Position numbers and translations under genes: made by a program. This document shows, in pieces, positions 48,855-58,482 of a stretch of DNA of 64,000 nt. Position 1 is the first letter of the stretch, and the number at the start of each line of letters is the position of its first letter. The stretch spans positions 744,001 through 808,000 of the forward strand of contig NZ_CP006965.1 in NCBI RefSeq assembly GCF_000517445.1, given 5' to 3'. Source of the DNA: Thermococcus paralvinellae. Lineage in GTDB: Archaea > Methanobacteriota_B > Thermococci > Thermococcales > Thermococcaceae. The notes below the pieces were generated by a model that saw nothing but the letters and a program-made list of their open reading frames with translations, did not search any database and had not been told where the DNA came from.

Positions 48855-50074
48855 CACTAATTGTGGGAAAGATCGGCGACAACATAATGGAACGCTTTGA
48901 GCTTCCTGGCGTTCTGGGAGAAATTTTGATGGGTATGATCCTAGGAAACCTTATTTATTTTGGGATTATAAGTCCCGAATACCTAACTCTTCATTCAAAT
49001 GAAACTTTTGAGTTTTTAGCCAAACTTGGAATAATTTTCCTTCTCTTCTTAGGAGGTCTCGACACAGATATAGAGATGATAAAAAGAACTGGAAAAGTAG
49101 CAACGGTTTCCACCCTTATGGGTGTGTTTACTCCATTAATAATGGGCTATTTTGGACTTAAACTTATGGGATATCCTTCAAGAGAAGCCTTTGCAGGTGG
49201 TGTTCTACTCACTGCAACAAGCATTGGAATTACAGTTAGGGTAATGATGGATCTAGGTGTTTTAAGGAGTGAAGTTGGCGCAGCTTCACTAAGTGCGAGT
49301 GTTATGGACGACTTTCTCGGCATAGCACTGATAATCTTTGCCGTTGGAACCGGAAGTATTTTGGGACTAATTGGAAAGATGGCGGCGTTTTTCATAATTA
49401 CTGGAATCTTAGCATGGTATTCAATTGACAAATACGTACGCTTTTCTGAGCGACTCCACGTAGAGAAGGGAGTTCTAGCCATGGTTCTGGCGTTAATGTT
49501 TCTCTTTTCAGCCCTCGCAGAGAAGTGGTTTGCTGCCGCAATTGAAGGTGCATTCATGGCAGGTCTTGTTTTATCAAAGCTCCCAGAGGGGAGGAAAATA
49601 GCAGAGGACGTCAAAGCTATTGGATATGGCTTCCTAATCCCAATATTCTTCGTGTACACTGGAGCAATGCTTGATCTGAAAGTGTTTGCAAGCAGAGAGG
49701 CATTGGCTTTAGCAGTCGTTCTAACCACCATTGCAGTTATTGGAAAGGTTGTGGGGAGAGGAATCGGAGCAATGATAATGGGATGGGACTTCAAAAAGTC
49801 TCTCCAAATGGGGATAGGTTCAATTCCAAGAACCGAAGTTGCTCTCGTGGATTTGATGGTTGCAATTCATGGAGGTGCAATACCCCAAAGTGATGCACAA
49901 AAGTTCATAGCTGCAACGCTGATTTTCATCACGGTCTCCGTACTGATAACTCCCCCACTGCTGAAGTGGGTATTTAAGGAAGATGTTGAAAGGAAGAAGA
50001 AAGAGAAAGCAGAGAATAAGAAAGAGAAAGTTAAAGAAACTAAGAAGAAAATTGCAAAGATTAAACAGAGCTGA
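48818..50074 (+). CDS. NapA/KefB-type Na+(K+)/H+ antiporter
   Basis: 418 residues, about 12 TMs, CPA2 family. Signatures include PGVLGEILMGMILGNLI, FLLFLGGLDTDIEMI, ATSIGITVRVMMDLGVL and the ion-binding region ASVMDDFLGIALIIF (the D-D pair of NapA is M-D-D here). A charged Lys/Glu tail of about 35 residues follows TM12. It exchanges Na+ or K+ for protons in the membrane. Starts after GGTGGTG, inside the CBS gene. Confidence 0.85.
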   Translation: MEPEWILFTLGVALIVGKIGDNIMERFELPGVLGEILMGMILGNLIYFGIISPEYLTLHSNETFEFLAKLGIIFLLFLGGLDTDIEMIKRTGKVATVSTLMGVFTPLIMGYFGLKLMGYPSREAFAGGVLLTATSIGITVRVMMDLGVLRSEVGAASLSASVMDDFLGIALIIFAVGTGSILGLIGKMAAFFIITGILAWYSIDKYVRFSERLHVEKGVLAMVLALMFLFSALAEKWFAAAIEGAFMAGLVLSKLPEGRKIAEDVKAIGYGFLIPIFFVYTGAMLDLKVFASREALALAVVLTTIAVIGKVVGRGIGAMIMGWDFKKSLQMGIGSIPRTEVALVDLMVAIHGGAIPQSDAQKFIAATLIFITVSVLITPPLLKWVFKEDVERKKKEKAENKKEKVKETKKKIAKIKQS

Positions 50075-50411
50075 GTTTTTCTTTTACTCTCCTTTCAAAT
50101 TCTACAAACGATGGAACTCCAATAAACTCAACTCTATTGTTTATTAGAATTGTTGGAGTTCCTAAGATGTTGTGCTCCATTGCTTTTTTCCTCCCTTCTG
50201 GAGTTGCAACGCTTAGCTCTTTCACAACTATTCCTTGATATTTTCTCGCTATCTCCTGTGCCATTTGAACTGCTATTGGACAGTAAGGACAAGTTGGTGA
50301 TGTGATAACTTCAATAACAACTCTTGGCTTCTTTGGTTTGACCTCAACCATCCCCATCTTCTTCATAAGCTCAAGCATCTTTTTTCTTCTGATCATCTCA
50401 AGCTCATCCAT
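50061..50411 (-). CDS. Small thioredoxin/glutaredoxin-like protein
   Basis: 116 residues. The redox site is ITSPTCPYCPIAVQMA (C-x-x-C, plus a Cys-free rest), and the cis-Pro is in ILGTPTILIN. An N-terminal helix (EMIRRKKMLELMKKMG) of about 25 residues precedes the fold. ATG 50411 follows GGTGAG; the frame from 50489 overlaps the iscU-like gene. It lies 58 bases after that gene on the same strand and may serve the sulfur or Fe-S set. Confidence 0.8.
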   Translation of the reverse strand: MDELEMIRRKKMLELMKKMGMVEVKPKKPRVVIEVITSPTCPYCPIAVQMAQEIARKYQGIVVKELSVATPEGRKKAMEHNILGTPTILINNRVEFIGVPSFVEFERRVKEKLSSV

Positions 50412-50469
50412 GTTCTCACCAAGGAGAGCTTGGAGAAAGGGTTTTAAAAAGAAATTGTTGAAGAAAATT

Positions 50470-51120
50470 TCATGATTCCGTAAATTCAATCTCTAAATCA
50501 ACGTCAAGGCCTTCAAAAGCTTCTTTTATTTGTTCTTCAAAAACTTCAGCCTCTGGGCTGTCCTTGGGAATATTAAGCATTATCTTAACTTTTTTGCCTT
50601 CAATCTTGCATCCCTTATATTTATCTCCCTTAAGAACACTCTCTCCAGTAAGTGGATCAATAACTGCCGCGAGAATCAATTTAACAAAGCTTTCGTCAAT
50701 TTTTCTCCTCCCTTGGATAACATCCCATTTCGCCAAAGCCTGCTTAAGTCCTTCAGCCGCTAAAATTGCACAGTGATATTTGATCTGTGGCAATCCCCCA
50801 AGCTCTTCCACAATGTCCTTGAATTTAATTTTCTTAGCTTCTTCAACAGTCTTTCCTTTTATCATTTCCGTAAGCACTGATGCAGTTGCAATATTTGCAG
50901 CACAGCCATAACTCCTAAATTTAGCGTCAACTATTTTGTCATTCTCAATCTTCAAATAGAGCTTTATCATGTCTCCACATGCTGGACTTCCCGCTTTTGC
51001 TGTAACACTTGGATTCTCTATTTCCCCAACATTTTTTGGATGAAGAAAGTACTGTAAGACCTTTCTTGAATAGCCTATTCTTTTTTTCTCGTCCCATTTC
51101 CTAGCATCAAATCTTTCCAT
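50470..51120 (-). CDS. IscU-type Fe-S scaffold fused to a DUF59/MIP18-like tail
   Basis: 216 residues. The first 150 are IscU: AGSPACGDMIKLYLKI, FRSYGCAANIATASVLTEM and IKYHCAILAAEGLKQAL hold the three scaffold cysteines. Residues about 152-214 (AAVIDPLTGESVLKGDKYKG, then VKIMLNIPKDSPEAEVFEEQI) look like a DUF59/MIP18 domain, a family that itself takes part in Fe-S maturation. It starts directly after tusA; its start codon lies next to the end of that gene's stop context. Builds and probably hands on Fe-S clusters in the cytoplasm. Confidence 0.8.
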   Translation of the reverse strand: MERFDARKWDEKKRIGYSRKVLQYFLHPKNVGEIENPSVTAKAGSPACGDMIKLYLKIENDKIVDAKFRSYGCAANIATASVLTEMIKGKTVEEAKKIKFKDIVEELGGLPQIKYHCAILAAEGLKQALAKWDVIQGRRKIDESFVKLILAAVIDPLTGESVLKGDKYKGCKIEGKKVKIMLNIPKDSPEAEVFEEQIKEAFEGLDVDLEIEFTES

Positions 51121-51342
51121 TTATCTCACCTTTTTCACGACGATTCTCCAAATACCATCTTTCTCATCAATTTCAAGGATTTCCTGCCCAGTTTCGTCTG
51201 CTGCTAGTGCTATTTCTCCCTTACTTAGCTCATGAGTGCCAACAATTTCAATTATCTCCCCAACTTTGGCTTTTCTCAAAGCCTTTCTGAATTCATTGAG
51301 AGGGATTGGACATTCTTTTCCTATGACATTGATCTTTATCAT
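51121..51342 (-). CDS. tusA: TusA/SirA-family sulfur carrier
   Basis: 73 residues. The TusA motif is VIGKECPIPLNEFRKAL, where the Cys of C-P-x-P carries sulfur as persulfide. The fold prediction (strand-helix-strand-helix-strand-strand) fits. Its start overlaps the end of the desulfurase-like gene by four bases, so translation is coupled. It could move sulfur between that protein and the IscU-like scaffold. Confidence 0.88.
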   Translation of the reverse strand: MIKINVIGKECPIPLNEFRKALRKAKVGEIIEIVGTHELSKGEIALAADETGQEILEIDEKDGIWRIVVKKVR

Positions 51343-52487
51343 CTCTTACCACCGTAGATGCTGATTTCCCTTAGTTTTTCAACGACATCCTTTATAATCT
51401 CATACGCTTTTACTATCTCATCCTCAGTTGTCCACTTGCTCAAGCTCAGCCTCACTGAACCGTGGGCATCCTCAAATGAACCTCCAATAGCCCTAATTAC
51501 ATGACTCGGCAAAAGTTCTTGCGAATAACATGCAGAACCAGTTGAAAACACTAATCCCCTCAAATCACAGTGGAGTAAAATGCTTTCTCCTTCAACATGA
51601 GCAAATGAAACGTTTACATTATTGGGCAACCTTTTATCTCCTCTTGGACCGTTGAGCTTTGTATCAGAAATGCTTAAGAGCAAATCAATTAGCTTATCCC
51701 TGAGCTTTGCCATTCTCTTGGCATCATCATAGTTTATTAACTCTACAGCTTTTCCAAAGCCGGCTATTGCTGGAACATTTATCATCCCGGGTCTTATCCC
51801 TTTCTCCCTTACATCTCCATCGAGAAGAGGCTTGAGTTTAACCCCGTCTCTTATATAAAGTGCGGCAATTCCCTTGGGACCGTGGATTAAGTGGGCAGTA
51901 ATGCTCATTAAATCAACATCCAGCTTTTTGACGTCGATTTTAACTTTACCAAAGGCATGATTTGCATCCAAATAAAGGAGAGCGCCTTTATCATGAACTA
52001 TCTCAGAGATTGCTTTGATGTCTTGGATAGTTCCAATTTCAAAGTTCCCTAAGTGAGTAGCGAAAAGAATTGCATCATTCAAATTGTCTTGAAGGTCTTC
52101 AAGGTTGATAAAACCCTCTCTATCAACACTAACCTCATAAGTTTCGAATCCCCAATCTCTTAATCTTTTGACCGTGTTAAGAATTGCCTTTCTCTCAATT
52201 TTACTTGCCAGAACTTTTCCTTTCTCTTTAGTCCATGCTATACCTTTTATCGCCAAATTATCAGCTTCAGTTTCATCAGAGACGAAGATAATCTCGTCTG
52301 GAGACGCATTTATTTCCTTCGCTATCTTTTCTCTCGCTTCTTCTATGGCTTCTCTAGCGTCCTCGTCAAATATATGCCCAAATTCACCTCCCGGAGTTCC
52401 GTATTTCTCTTGCAGATATTCAAGCATTACCCTAATTACCTCTGGATCGGGCTTAGTCGTGTTTGCATTATCCAGATAAATTACCAT
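51339..52487 (-). CDS. Cysteine desulfurase homologue (IscS/NifS fold) lacking the PLP lysine
   Basis: 382 residues. Family marks: YLDNANTTKPDPEVI, VSDETEADNLAIKG, GNFEIGTIQDI, LDANHAFGKVKIDV, RPGMINVPAIAGFGKA and the catalytic-Cys loop FSTGSACYSQELLPSH (Cys about 320). The lysine that binds PLP, normally S-x-H-K-x-x-G-P-K-G, is Leu200 here (ITAHLIHGPKG; codon TTA at 51890-51888). The Gln of the usual DAAQ is also His. Known: an Archaeoglobus IscS lacking this lysine has been described. Normal desulfurase chemistry is thus unlikely; a scaffold or sulfide-using role is possible. ATG 52487 follows AGGTGAGG. Confidence 0.85.
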   Translation of the reverse strand: MVIYLDNANTTKPDPEVIRVMLEYLQEKYGTPGGEFGHIFDEDAREAIEEAREKIAKEINASPDEIIFVSDETEADNLAIKGIAWTKEKGKVLASKIERKAILNTVKRLRDWGFETYEVSVDREGFINLEDLQDNLNDAILFATHLGNFEIGTIQDIKAISEIVHDKGALLYLDANHAFGKVKIDVKKLDVDLMSITAHLIHGPKGIAALYIRDGVKLKPLLDGDVREKGIRPGMINVPAIAGFGKAVELINYDDAKRMAKLRDKLIDLLLSISDTKLNGPRGDKRLPNNVNVSFAHVEGESILLHCDLRGLVFSTGSACYSQELLPSHVIRAIGGSFEDAHGSVRLSLSKWTTEDEIVKAYEIIKDVVEKLREISIYGGKR

Positions 52488-52551
52488 TTTCCTCACCTGG
52501 GTATCACTAATCGGAGATCATTTTTAAGTATTGCTGGACATAACTGTATAA

Positions 52552-52941
52552 CTAACCAAATAGATTTATACATATCTTGCATTCTGCTGGATTTAATTCA
52601 GGATCAATTTCTTCATGAAGAGAGCAGAGATAACCTTTTCCAAGCATTTTTAGTGCAATTTTAACAAGTTCCGCGTGTATTTGGTATTCAGTTGGTCTCT
52701 CTCTAATTATTTCTTCTGCAAGCTTTCTAAGATCTGTATCAATATCTGGAAATTTTGAAACTTCTATGAGTGCTCCCCTATTCATTCGCAAATACCTCGA
52801 AACAGCAGATTGAGTAATATGCAGAAGTTCAGCAACTTGAGTTTGAGTCAATTTATGCTCCTTGTAGAGAATTTCAACTAACCGCCTCCTTAATGAGGGG
52901 TAAACATACTTAGCCGCAACTTCAAAAGCATTTATTTTCAT
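52552..52941 (-). CDS. HTH transcription regulator with C-terminal Cys/His cluster
   Basis: 129 residues. An N-terminal HTH (LTQTQVAELLHITQSAVSRYLRM, residues about 30-52) is followed by helices and a C-terminal YLCSLHEEIDPELNPAECKICINLF: C-x-x-H plus C-x-x-C, able to bind a metal or Fe-S cluster. ATG 52941 falls about 27 bases from a TATA box (CTTATATATG, 52973-52964), so the mRNA is leaderless or nearly so. A near-perfect ATGAC-N4-GKCAT site covers that start region. It precedes the desulfurase-like gene by 64 bases on the same strand and probably autoregulates the set (inference). Confidence 0.75.
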   Translation of the reverse strand: MKINAFEVAAKYVYPSLRRRLVEILYKEHKLTQTQVAELLHITQSAVSRYLRMNRGALIEVSKFPDIDTDLRKLAEEIIRERPTEYQIHAELVKIALKMLGKGYLCSLHEEIDPELNPAECKICINLFG

Positions 52942-52951
52942 GATTCCTAAT

Positions 52952-52965
52952 ATGACGTGTGGCAT
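52952..52965. promoter_or_regulatory. Palindrome copy 1 (ATGAC-GTGT-GGCAT) at the regulator's own promoter
   Basis: Matches the ATGAC-N4-GTCAT consensus at nine of ten arm bases. It lies directly downstream of the TATA box of the HTH gene (minus strand), reaching to the start of transcription, a classical autorepression position. Confidence 0.55.
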
Positions 52966-53287: not shown

Positions 53288-54616
53288 ATGTTGTGTAACC
53301 AATGTTCAATGAGCTTGGTTGGAGGATGTACTATCAAAGGAGTTTGTGGAAAAGACCCAGATTTGAATGCCCTCCAAGAAGCTCTACTCTACGGAATAAA
53401 AGGAACAGCGGCATATTATTACCATGCTCTAGAGGTTGGCTATGATAACAAGGAAATAGGTCACTTCTTAGCAGAGGCTTTGTACTCAACACTAACTAAC
53501 GTCAACTTCGATAAGAATAGATTCTTGGAGTTAATTCTTGAAAATGGCAGGATACACTTGGAGGCTATGAAGCTCCTTGACAAGACCTATGTCGAGACCT
53601 TTGGAAGACCAGAGCCCACTTGGGTCTCTACGGGTACAGAAGAAGGTCATGGAGTTTTGGTAACAGGTCACAGCTATAAAGCCCTCTATGAACTCCTCAA
53701 GCAAACTGAAGGGACTGATATAAAGGTATACACCCACGCAGAGATGTTTCCAGCTCATGCATATCCAGAGTTCAAGAAGTTCGATCACTTGGTGGCAAAT
53801 TGGGGAGGAAGTTGGCTTTATCAAAAGAAAGAGTTTACAGAATTCCCAGGCGTTATTTTAGGCACAAGCAACTGTGTTCAGCAACCAACAGAAGCCTACG
53901 CTGATAGGATTTTCACCGTCGGGATAGCTGGTCTTGAAGGAGTCCCACACATTAGAGATTATAACTTCGAGCCTTTGATAAAGAGGGCTTTGCAAACGCC
54001 AAGAATGGAGAAGAGAGAAGGAGAAAAGTTACTTACAGGCTTCCATCACACCAACATCTTGGCCATGAAAGACAAGCTTATTGAGCTCATACAAGAGGGT
54101 AAGATAAGGCACATCTTCGTGGTCGGAGGATGTGATACTCCTGATCCAAAGATGAGCTATTATGAAAAACTCACCGCCATGATTCCTGAAGATGCAATCA
54201 TACTCAGCGCCGCTTGTGGAAAGTTCCGCTACAATGCAAGGAACTACGGTACAATTGAGGGCATTCCAAGGTTTCTCGACTTCGGACAGTGTAACAATGT
54301 TTACTCAATAATTGAGATTGCTGTAGCTTTAGCCAATGAGCTCGGAACTGATGTCAATTCATTACCAGTCTCAATAGTCCTCTCATGGATGGAGCAAAAA
54401 GCAATAGGAATACTGTACACACTGCTCTACCTTGGGGTTAAGGGAATTTACATCGGTCCAAGACCTCCAGAGTTCCTAACACCGAAAATCTTTGAAATCC
54501 TCAGGAAACAGTTTGATCTAAGGCTCACAGGTGATCCAGAGAAGGACCTTAGGGACATGCTCAATAAAGGAGTTAAAATAGAAGAAGGCCCAATATTGGC
54601 AGAAGAGCTAGATTGA
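53288..54616 (+). CDS. hcp: Hybrid cluster protein (hydroxylamine reductase), short archaeal class
   Basis: 442 residues, about 100 shorter than the E. coli class, as in archaeal class III Hcp without the extra helical domain. N-terminal 4Fe-4S ligands C3, C6, C14, C20 (CNQCSMSLVGG, CTIKGVC). Hybrid-cluster ligands lie in TGTEEGHGVLV, GTSNCVQQPTEAY, VVGGCDTPDP, LSAACGKFRYN and the C-terminal Glu region. Hcp reduces nitric oxide or hydroxylamine and is linked to protein S-nitrosylation in bacteria. ATG 53288 follows GGAGGTG. Palindrome copies 2 and 3 lie before it. Confidence 0.92.
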   Translation: MLCNQCSMSLVGGCTIKGVCGKDPDLNALQEALLYGIKGTAAYYYHALEVGYDNKEIGHFLAEALYSTLTNVNFDKNRFLELILENGRIHLEAMKLLDKTYVETFGRPEPTWVSTGTEEGHGVLVTGHSYKALYELLKQTEGTDIKVYTHAEMFPAHAYPEFKKFDHLVANWGGSWLYQKKEFTEFPGVILGTSNCVQQPTEAYADRIFTVGIAGLEGVPHIRDYNFEPLIKRALQTPRMEKREGEKLLTGFHHTNILAMKDKLIELIQEGKIRHIFVVGGCDTPDPKMSYYEKLTAMIPEDAIILSAACGKFRYNARNYGTIEGIPRFLDFGQCNNVYSIIEIAVALANELGTDVNSLPVSIVLSWMEQKAIGILYTLLYLGVKGIYIGPRPPEFLTPKIFEILRKQFDLRLTGDPEKDLRDMLNKGVKIEEGPILAEELD

Positions 54617-54725
54617 GCTCGTTTTTTTCAATTTTTAATTTTTCAACAGTTATTTAGACGTTCACTTAAAAAGATTTTTTGATAGCATGGACAAAAATGT
54701 GTAGAAAGATTTAAAAGTGTTTAAC

Positions 54726-54741
54726 TATGACATATGTCATG
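54726..54741. promoter_or_regulatory. Palindrome copy 4 (TATGAC-ATAT-GTCATG) before the hemerythrin gene
   Basis: Arms ATGAC/GTCAT are perfect. A TATA-like TTTAAAAG at 54708-54715 puts the transcript start near 54737, inside the palindrome, so a bound regulator would block initiation. The gap 54617-54752 has no gene. Confidence 0.7.
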
Positions 54742-54752
54742 AAGGTGATAAG

Positions 54753-56090
54753 ATGACTGAAATTTTGAAAAATCGTGAGTATAAAAAAGAGAAAATGAAA
54801 GAACTATTGAAGAAAATCCACGAGGGAAAAGATGTTGAAAAACTTAAGGAAGAGTTTAAAGAGCTCTTGAGAAGCATCTCACCGCTGGAAATACCACTTA
54901 TTGAGCAAGAACTTGTTAAAGAGGGCATTTCTGCTAGAGAAATCGCAAAGATGTGTGACATCCACGTTGAACTTTTCAGAGAAGCAGTTTCTGGAGCTGA
55001 GAAGGAAGAGCTGAGTGATATTCCTCCGGGCCATCCTCTCCATACACTGTATGAAGAGAACAAAGAAATTATGAAAGATGCAGAAATGCTCAATCTTTAC
55101 GCCTCAACTCTAGCCAACACAAAGGATGAAAGAATGAGAAAAGAAATTCTCGGAGTTCTTAAAGAGATTGCCAATCAGCTCAGAGCAGTTGGGTTTACTC
55201 ACTACAATAGGGAGGAGATGCTACTCTTCCCATATCTCGAAAGGAGAGGCATTACAGCTGTTCCAACAGTCCTCTGGACAAAGCATGATGAAATAAGGGC
55301 AATGATCAAGCAGCTAATCGGAATATTAAACAGAGAAAACGAAATGGAGTGGGAAGAATTCGTAAGTAAAGTGAAAGAAAAAGCTTCAGAACTTTCGAGA
55401 GCTCTAGTTGACATGGTGTTCAGGGAGAACAACATACTTTACCCAACTCTAAAAGCTCTGCTCTCAGAAGGTGAATGGGTTGCTATTAGACAGCAGGAGG
55501 ATGCGATAGGTTACTATAAAGTCAAACCAGGTAATGAATGGAAGCCAAAAGCAAAGCCGCTTCATCCCTATGAAATTGACACAACCTTAACCGCCGAACA
55601 GATCTTAAGCCTTCCAAAAGAAGTTCAGATGGCCTTGAGAGGGCAAAAGCTTGAAGGAGACAAAACAAAAGTAAAGAGAGAAGGTGACTTGGAGTTAGAC
55701 ACTGGCTATCTCTCACCAAAAGAAATAAACGCAATATTCAAACACCTGCCCGTTGATATAACCTTCATAGACAAAGATGACAGGGTAAGGTTTTTCTCAG
55801 GTGGAGATAGAATATTTACGAGGACTCCATCAGTAATTGGAAGACCTGTGCAACTCTGCCACCCACCGAAAAGCGTCCACATAGTTAATAAAATTCTCAG
55901 AGCTTTCAAGGAAGGTAGAAAAGACGTTGCAGAATTCTGGATTCAAATGGGAGGAAAATTCATACATATTCGCTATTTCGCGGTGAGAGACGAGAACGGT
56001 GAATACTTGGGAACTCTTGAAGTCGTCCAAGATGTTACCGAAATTAGAAAGCTCGAAGGAGAAAAGAGACTTTTAGATTGGAGGGATTGA
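54753..56090 (+). CDS. DUF438 - hemerythrin - PAS protein
   Basis: 445 residues in three parts: a DUF438 helical domain (about 15-95, KELLRSISPLEIPLIEQELVKEG), a hemerythrin HHE domain (about 100-250: H-P-L-H-T, FTHYNREEMLLFPYLE, LWTKHDEIRAMI, RENNILYPTL give His/Glu iron ligands), and a C-terminal PAS domain (about 335-440: LPVDITFIDKDDRVRFFSGG, IGRPVQLCHPPKSVHIV). Likely a soluble sensor of O2 or NO by its di-iron site. ATG 54753 follows GGTGAT. Heads an operon with the cupin and the M24-like protein and shares the hcp palindrome. Confidence 0.88.
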   Translation: MTEILKNREYKKEKMKELLKKIHEGKDVEKLKEEFKELLRSISPLEIPLIEQELVKEGISAREIAKMCDIHVELFREAVSGAEKEELSDIPPGHPLHTLYEENKEIMKDAEMLNLYASTLANTKDERMRKEILGVLKEIANQLRAVGFTHYNREEMLLFPYLERRGITAVPTVLWTKHDEIRAMIKQLIGILNRENEMEWEEFVSKVKEKASELSRALVDMVFRENNILYPTLKALLSEGEWVAIRQQEDAIGYYKVKPGNEWKPKAKPLHPYEIDTTLTAEQILSLPKEVQMALRGQKLEGDKTKVKREGDLELDTGYLSPKEINAIFKHLPVDITFIDKDDRVRFFSGGDRIFTRTPSVIGRPVQLCHPPKSVHIVNKILRAFKEGRKDVAEFWIQMGGKFIHIRYFAVRDENGEYLGTLEVVQDVTEIRKLEGEKRLLDWRD

Positions 56091-57618: not shown

Positions 57619-58482
57619 ATGAACATTGGAGCCTTCCTGATAACCTTTAGGGAATCACTTGAGGCCGCTATAATTGGGACAATTATCATAGCATACCTGA
57701 AGAGGACAAAAAGAGAACAGCAAATTAAAAGTGTGTGGACGGGACTTGGGCTCTCAGTATTGGCGAGCTTCGCCCTTGGGGTAGCAGTCCTTAAAATCTA
57801 TGGCGGACTGGAGGAGAAAGAGCTCTTTGAGGGACTGGCATCATATTTAGCTGTCATTGTCTTGACGAGCATGATATACTGGATGGCGACTAAGGGCGCG
57901 AACATAAAGGAGGAGATAGAGAGCAAAGTGTCTCAGGCAATAAATCCCCTGGCTTTGACAGCTTTCACATTCATAGTGGTCTTTAGAGAAGGCCTAGAAA
58001 CTGTACTCTTTTTAACACCGTTTGCAACTCAAGACTTAAGTGGTACTTTATTGGACTTGATTTTAGGGCTGGCTGGAGCTTTAGGCTTGGCCTATCTCAT
58101 CTATGGTATTGGAATGAGGATTAACATGAGGACCTTCTTCTACTACAGCTCAATACTCCTGATATTCGTTGCCGCTGGACTTTTAGGCTATGGAACACAC
58201 GAACTCATTGAATTTGCCGAAGAAGAGGGGATAAGCTTAGGTTGGTTTGCCCAAACAGCTTACGACTTAGGAATTCCTAAAGACAGCATCTGGTATCACA
58301 AAGGTGCTGTAGGCTCAATATTTGCGGTGCTCTTTGGATATTCAACAAAAATGGAGTGGGGGAGGTTAATTTTGCAGTCTGGTTATATGGTGTTTGCTCT
58401 CCACCTCGTGATGAGGGCTTATAAAAAAGAGCCCCAGCTCAGTCTGCAAGGGCAACGTGGAGTGCTAAGAGAAGGTACATGA
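57619..58482 (+). CDS. FTR1-family iron permease
   Basis: 287 residues, seven TMs. The two R-E-x-L-E iron motifs are seen: FRESLEAAII near residue 10 and FREGLETVLF near 123. Later loops carry HELIEFAEEEG, another acidic patch facing substrate. EfeU/Ftr1 permeases import iron. ATG 57619 follows GGAGGTG. Its 3' end overlaps the end of the convergent membrane protein gene by 44 bases. The 57505-57618 gap holds no gene. Confidence 0.85.
   Translation: MNIGAFLITFRESLEAAIIGTIIIAYLKRTKREQQIKSVWTGLGLSVLASFALGVAVLKIYGGLEEKELFEGLASYLAVIVLTSMIYWMATKGANIKEEIESKVSQAINPLALTAFTFIVVFREGLETVLFLTPFATQDLSGTLLDLILGLAGALGLAYLIYGIGMRINMRTFFYYSSILLIFVAAGLLGYGTHELIEFAEEEGISLGWFAQTAYDLGIPKDSIWYHKGAVGSIFAVLFGYSTKMEWGRLILQSGYMVFALHLVMRAYKKEPQLSLQGQRGVLREGT

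Follow-up and report, generated by a model that had tools for sequence, protein, structure and literature searches.

IscS of Archaeoglobus fulgidus (PDB 4eb5, 4eb7 and 4hvk; D199K mutant, 4r5f) lacks the lysine that binds PLP. It has no desulfurase activity and coordinates the IscU-bound cluster through a Cys (PMC7585200). IscS1 of Methanosarcina acetivorans is also without the lysine, and four genes without an assigned function belong to its iscSU1 cluster; the paper on IscS1-IscU1 names no TusA or DsrE (PMC7585200). Archaeal DsrE hands thiosulfate to TusA (PMC4175335), and it is possible for E. coli IscS dimers to hold IscU and TusA simultaneously (PMC11302665). Thermococcus kodakarensis has a sulfur-dependent Fe-S cluster route that works without a cysteine desulfurase (PMC12442378). 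The genome paper of Palaeococcus pacificus lists IscSU (PAP_08965, PAP_08975) and is silent on the lysine (PMC6981617).

We analysed a stretch of 64,000 nucleotides from Thermococcus paralvinellae (the window), which carries a lysine-less iscS gene, here called iscS-L. The order of genes on the minus strand is HTH regulator, iscS, tusA, iscU and thioredoxin-like gene, with the following features:

51339..52487, minus strand: lysine-less IscS/NifS-type gene (382 aa, ATG start; PF00266, E 2.1e-60)
51888..51890, minus strand: Leu200, codon TTA, at the position of E. coli IscS Lys206, the PLP Schiff-base lysine
52191..52193, minus strand: Arg99, replacing the PLP-stacking His (E. coli His104) in alignments
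51957..51959, minus strand: His177, replacing Gln (E. coli Gln183) in alignments
51528..51530, minus strand: Cys320 of the persulfide loop GSACYS, codon TGT, kept in alignments
51121..51342, minus strand: tusA, CPIP motif (PF01206, E 9.4e-18)
50470..51120, minus strand: iscU scaffold gene, 216 aa (PF01592, E 1.7e-41)
50500..50676, minus strand: C-terminal FeS_assembly_P (DUF59)-like domain fused to IscU (PF01883, E 0.0007, weak)
50061..50489, minus strand: thioredoxin/glutaredoxin-like gene, CPYC, last in the cluster (PF13192, E 2.1e-9)
52552..52965, minus strand: upstream HTH regulator with a C-terminal Cys cluster (PF01381, E 4.4e-6)

The window IscS belongs to the lysine-less type: it has no lysine at the site, retains the Cys loop and is clustered with an IscU carrying the Cys/Asp/Cys/His/Cys ligands. 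It has the IscS fold, the missing PLP lysine, the Cys loop and the IscU partner in common with A. fulgidus IscS, to which it is about 39-40% identical (PDB alignments). The two differ at the active site, where A. fulgidus IscS has Asp (Asp199) instead of Leu, keeps the stacking His and has lost the Arg aligned with Arg346; the Leu form and the Asp clade are separate in our tree, although A. fulgidus itself is outside it. M. acetivorans IscS1 has the loop STGSACFS, as does the clade of relatives with Thr at the lysine site (K->T clade), and its IscU1 is long (24.2 kDa), like the IscU with a DUF59 domain (PMC7585200). These K->T relatives combine Thr with a change of the stacking His to Asp, whereas the window clade combines Leu with His to Arg. 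The pair of an IscS-type and an IscU-type protein is shared with the MIS (MisS-MisU) and canonical ISC (IscS-IscU) systems, but both of these depend on a working cysteine desulfurase, and the window IscS is without the lysine. With the Metallosphaera cuprina DsrE3A-TusA system (PMC4175335) the window shares TusA, a mobile sulfur carrier often found with DsrE. The M. cuprina genes adjoin heterodisulfide reductase-like genes, whereas the window tusA adjoins iscS and iscU in a genome in which no DsrE was found.

The class-V aminotransferase fold is present in the window IscS (PF00266; Foldseek matches to IscS, Nfs1 and A. fulgidus IscS). An earlier reading of the window from sequence only had proposed that most of the fold remains, and the AlphaFold model (pLDDT 86.8) agrees, with a TM-score of 0.92 to A. 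fulgidus IscS 4hvk, normalised by the target. By sequence, the closest solved relatives are A. fulgidus IscS 4r5f/4eb5 (E about 1e-89), and the curated NCBIfam equivalog cut-offs are missed for both NifS (389.4 of 530.75 bits) and IscS (338.1 of 643.2). Residues 195-207 read SITAHLIHGPKGI. The sequence-only reading had put Leu in place of the PLP lysine at residue 200, within AHLIHGPKG and at codon TTA (51890-51888), two changes from any lysine codon; its coordinates and motif were right, and TTA is two base changes away from AAA. The persulfide Cys that it had placed at about residue 320 is indeed kept as Cys320, together with Asp174, Asn148 and Arg346. Features that it had not reported are Arg99 for the stacking His, His177 for Gln183 and a phosphate-loop motif that is SDET instead of SGAT/SGGT. 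Lys205 of GPKG was considered as a stand-in and rejected; it is an ordinary conserved residue, and since normal IscS has it too, it does not replace the missing PLP lysine. An alternative in-frame GTG start of iscS lies at 52496, 9 bases upstream of the ATG.

The absence of the catalytic lysine could indicate a decaying gene or a sequencing artefact, and iscS-L is missing from 84 of the 94 Thermococcaceae genomes searched. The gene was present in the other 10, including all 7 of the window's own genus. Leu occupies the site in every Thermococcaceae homologue in which the site is readable (10 genomes), its codon is TTA, TTG or CTA among the nine Thermococcaceae coding sequences compared, and dN/dS of iscS-L against congeners is 0.046-0.070. 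Moreover, the gene occurs in three genus-level groups, and iscS-tusA-iscU is unbroken in representatives of each. The presence of Leu in all readable copies, the synonymous codons and a dN/dS of about 0.05 therefore rule out a pseudogene or sequencing error, and we give decay or artefact practically no chance. Other Thermococcaceae live in similar sulfidic habitats. Since 84 of the 94 genomes are without the gene, the sulfide-rich habitat to which the sequence-only reading had tentatively linked the lysine loss does not by itself explain it.

We examined the cluster and the rest of the genome. The genes iscS and tusA overlap by 4 bases, at the end of the former and the start of the latter; the tusA product has a PF01206 domain with the CPxP motif (here CPIP) and is the only TusA above the cut-off in the genome search. 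The cluster IscU is likewise the only NifU_N protein in the genome. It retains the ligands Cys48, Asp50, Cys73, His116 and Cys117, and its model is closest to A. fulgidus IscU 4eb5_C. Its NifU_N domain is clear, and PF01883 scored 20.3 bits, under the cut-off of 23.5, vs 50.6 and 46.9 bits for the IscU of K->T relatives. The thioredoxin-like protein scored 76.9 bits against TIGR00411, under the cut-off of 92.75, and its gene likely starts at an ATG near 50411. No DsrE protein was found in the genome searched. A second, lysine-bearing desulfurase, which the sequence-only reading had advised looking for, is present elsewhere in the genome (G000:C1:1338703-1339803). It is of the SufS type (SGHKGPLGP) and closely matches the cysteine desulfurase of PDB 5b7s (E 8.9e-239), presumably the Thermococcus onnurineus CSD described in PMC5426080.

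The HTH regulator, which may be Fe-S or redox sensing, is not tied to the lysine-less state. Its homologues recur beside archaeal iscS genes of both kinds (20 of 102 lysine-bearing and 11 of 56 lysine-less copies). The divergent neighbours (53288-54616, 54717-56090 and 57619-58482) encode a hybrid cluster protein (Prismane), a DUF438-hemerythrin-PAS protein and an FTR1-type iron permease; iron and nitrogen-stress genes thus adjoin the Fe-S cluster genes in the window.

The window IscS served as query for a survey of IscS-type proteins, which covered 99 genomes from the same phylum and a draw of 392 from the same domain; 140 neighbourhoods were fetched. Removal of SufS-like proteins left 158 of the IscS type, all archaeal save a handful from three Dehalococcoidales loci. 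At the position of the PLP lysine, 102 had lysine and 56 did not, in a sample that is biased toward the window IscS by the query, has related rows and includes some loci ending at contig edges. Lysine loss beyond Archaeoglobus, as the sequence-only reading had suspected, is therefore borne out. The 56 lysine-less proteins contained Thr (22), Leu (14), Asp (9), Arg (7), Gln (2) or His (2) at the site. The Cys of the Cys loop was kept in 158/158, including 56/56 lysine-less proteins, and the IscU ligands were kept in all partners adjoining lysine-less copies. The PLP-stacking His was found in 96 of the 102 lysine-bearing relatives, vs Arg99 in the window IscS.

A tusA gene no more than 1.5 kb from iscS and on the same strand was counted as linked. 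By this measure, tusA lay beside 48 of 56 lysine-less but 6 of 102 lysine-bearing copies (Fisher p 2.5e-25, with rows that are not independent), which supports the partnership with IscU and TusA that the sequence-only reading had proposed. All six lysine-bearing copies near tusA belong to operons of one family (f6) that also hold a K->R paralogue. A DsrE-family gene (PF13686/PF02635) was found beside 20 of 56 lysine-less vs 0 of 102 lysine-bearing copies. Twenty-one genomes contained both kinds of IscS; in these, TusA was next to the lysine-less copy alone in 14 and next to both copies in 6, while no genome had it beside the lysine-bearing copy alone and 1 had it beside neither. The class Dehalococcoidia served as a later test set, in which the three earlier Dehalococcoidales loci were included. 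Here tusA lay beside 20 of 28 lysine-less vs 0 of 23 lysine-bearing copies; the lysine-less forms had Gln, Pro, Val or Glu, and DsrE was also beside 19 of the 20 TusA-linked copies. The suggestion of a wider archaeal adaptation thus holds as to its reach beyond Archaeoglobus but not as to its restriction to archaea. No TusA was near eight of the 56 archaeal-set lysine-less copies or near eight of the bacterial ones, some of them at contig ends.

The main exceptions to the TusA rule are L159 and L188 (family f41), which have Arg or His at the lysine site (FDAHR/H-IHGPKG), no TusA nearby, and a position sister to the K->T clade. The f6 operons (L112, L118, L121, L130, L137 and L203) combine a K->R IscS and a normal IscS with TusA and, in most cases, IscU. 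Five of the f6 genomes also have a K->T copy (AHTMYGPKG) adjoining another TusA, with CPMH instead of CPxP. Six-frame translation of the iscS-iscU gaps of L095 and L098 revealed no hidden TusA. The fusion of IscU with DUF59 was rejected as a general mark of lysine loss: the Leu and Thr(I) clades have it, as does one lysine-bearing sister (L098, judged by extension length), but the Asp, Arg and Thr(M) forms do not. A long Dehalococcoidales IscU (L021, 6624-7217, plus strand) has a C-terminal zinc-ribbon-like tail (weak Pfam matches), not the DUF59-like domain.

To follow the lysine state, an IscS tree was built without the active-site columns; it is a quick tree whose long branches counsel caution, and A. 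fulgidus is not in it. On this tree the lysine state requires at least four changes, all of them forced by well-supported branches. The four independent contrasts nearly always favour TusA (mean 3.6) and in no case oppose it (sign test p 0.125); four are too few for significance alone. A single lysine-less clade was rejected (AU p 0.0195), which argues against one adaptation spread by descent. The Leu and Asp (SSND) forms sit in separate clades. The Leu and Thr(I) forms have lost the stacking His (to Arg in the Leu clade and to Asp in the K->T clade) and kept Arg346, whereas the Asp, Gln, Thr(M) and nearly all Arg forms have lost Arg346 and mostly kept the His. These two patterns of further erosion fit separate losses of the lysine. 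The sister of the Leu clade is a lysine-bearing IscS (L098; G290:C2, 3481-4656, plus strand) that already has Arg for the stacking His, and this locus has a long IscU (83-residue extension) and no TusA; it possibly represents an intermediate stage preceding lysine loss.

We lean slightly toward the view that IscS-L is a catalytically dead desulfurase kept as a platform for IscU, with its Cys loop loaded by sulfane sulfur borne by TusA. We infer that the window IscS has lost desulfurase activity and that TusA feeds IscS-L or IscU. IscS-L would act as a dimeric support for Fe-S cluster assembly by IscU. The sulfane sulfur on TusA would be generated at another place in the cell from elemental sulfur, polysulfide or thiosulfate, and TusA would pass it either to the Cys loop of the dead IscS, reversing the bacterial flow from IscS to TusA, or to IscU directly. 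In many relatives TusA is accompanied by a DsrE-family protein. Reduction of the sulfur to sulfide could fall to the thioredoxin-like protein, cluster hand-off would be aided by the DUF59-like domain of IscU, and the separate SufS-type enzyme would provide cysteine-derived sulfur for other needs. The loss of PLP contacts, the retention of the Cys and the IscU ligands, the purifying selection and the tight cluster with tusA and iscU are consistent with such a relay. On the other side, the sulfur on TusA could come from the SufS enzyme for another pathway, with the operon merely shared; sulfide alone could supply the sulfur, by analogy with SMS (PMC12192291); and this genome has no DsrE as a sulfur source for TusA. 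More tentatively, we propose a desulfurase-independent ISC pathway in archaea and Chloroflexota, in which the lysine would have been lost repeatedly once TusA (often with DsrE) supplied IscS, turning it into a persulfide relay and scaffold for inorganic sulfane sulfur; this wider proposal is plausible but short of probable.

TusA has other roles in bacteria, and Thermococcales produce sulfide. IscS-L could accordingly be a passive platform and Cys-ligand donor that uses free sulfide, with TusA kept in the operon for a different sulfur task, for example in the thiolation of tRNA or in the chemistry of selenium or the molybdenum cofactor. Although A. fulgidus IscS acts as a Cys ligand without activity (PMC7585200) and SMS works on sulfide (PMC12192291), TusA tracks the lysine-less state, not IscS-IscU clusters generally, and does so in several lineages and within single genomes, which makes this explanation rather unlikely. 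A residual PLP chemistry was also considered. The claim that no resting aldimine can form without the lysine is right, but PLP may still be bound, by analogy with the lysine-less A. fulgidus complex 4EB5, in which it is shown according to a figure legend (PMC9769115). PLP held without a Schiff base could allow a slow or different reaction on a thiol substrate, with TusA as the acceptor; Asp174 and Asn148 are kept, as in the Leu clade is Arg346, which aligns with the substrate-carboxylate Arg. However, the stacking His is Arg or Asp in the Leu and K->T clades, Gln183 is replaced by His, the phosphate loop is altered, and A. fulgidus IscS is reported to be inactive (PMC7585200). We consider such a reaction improbable.

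Lysine-less IscS was already known from A. fulgidus and, as IscS1, from M. acetivorans; the genomic rule with TusA is new as far as we could search, and no paper linking lysine loss to TusA or DsrE was found in the open-access literature searched. The question at stake is how Fe-S clusters obtain sulfur without a cysteine desulfurase in anaerobes of sulfide- or sulfur-rich places, such as methanogens and T. kodakarensis with its sulfur-dependent route. The repeated coupling of lysine loss to the gain of TusA, and often of DsrE, points to a specific candidate for the sulfur donor and opens the question to tests on proteins that are small and probably heat-stable. There is a warning for annotation as well, as many archaeal and Dehalococcoidia proteins annotated as cysteine desulfurase are probably not such enzymes. 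These results suggest that, in lineages with lysine-less IscS and TusA, Fe-S clusters are fed by a sulfur relay and not by cysteine breakdown.
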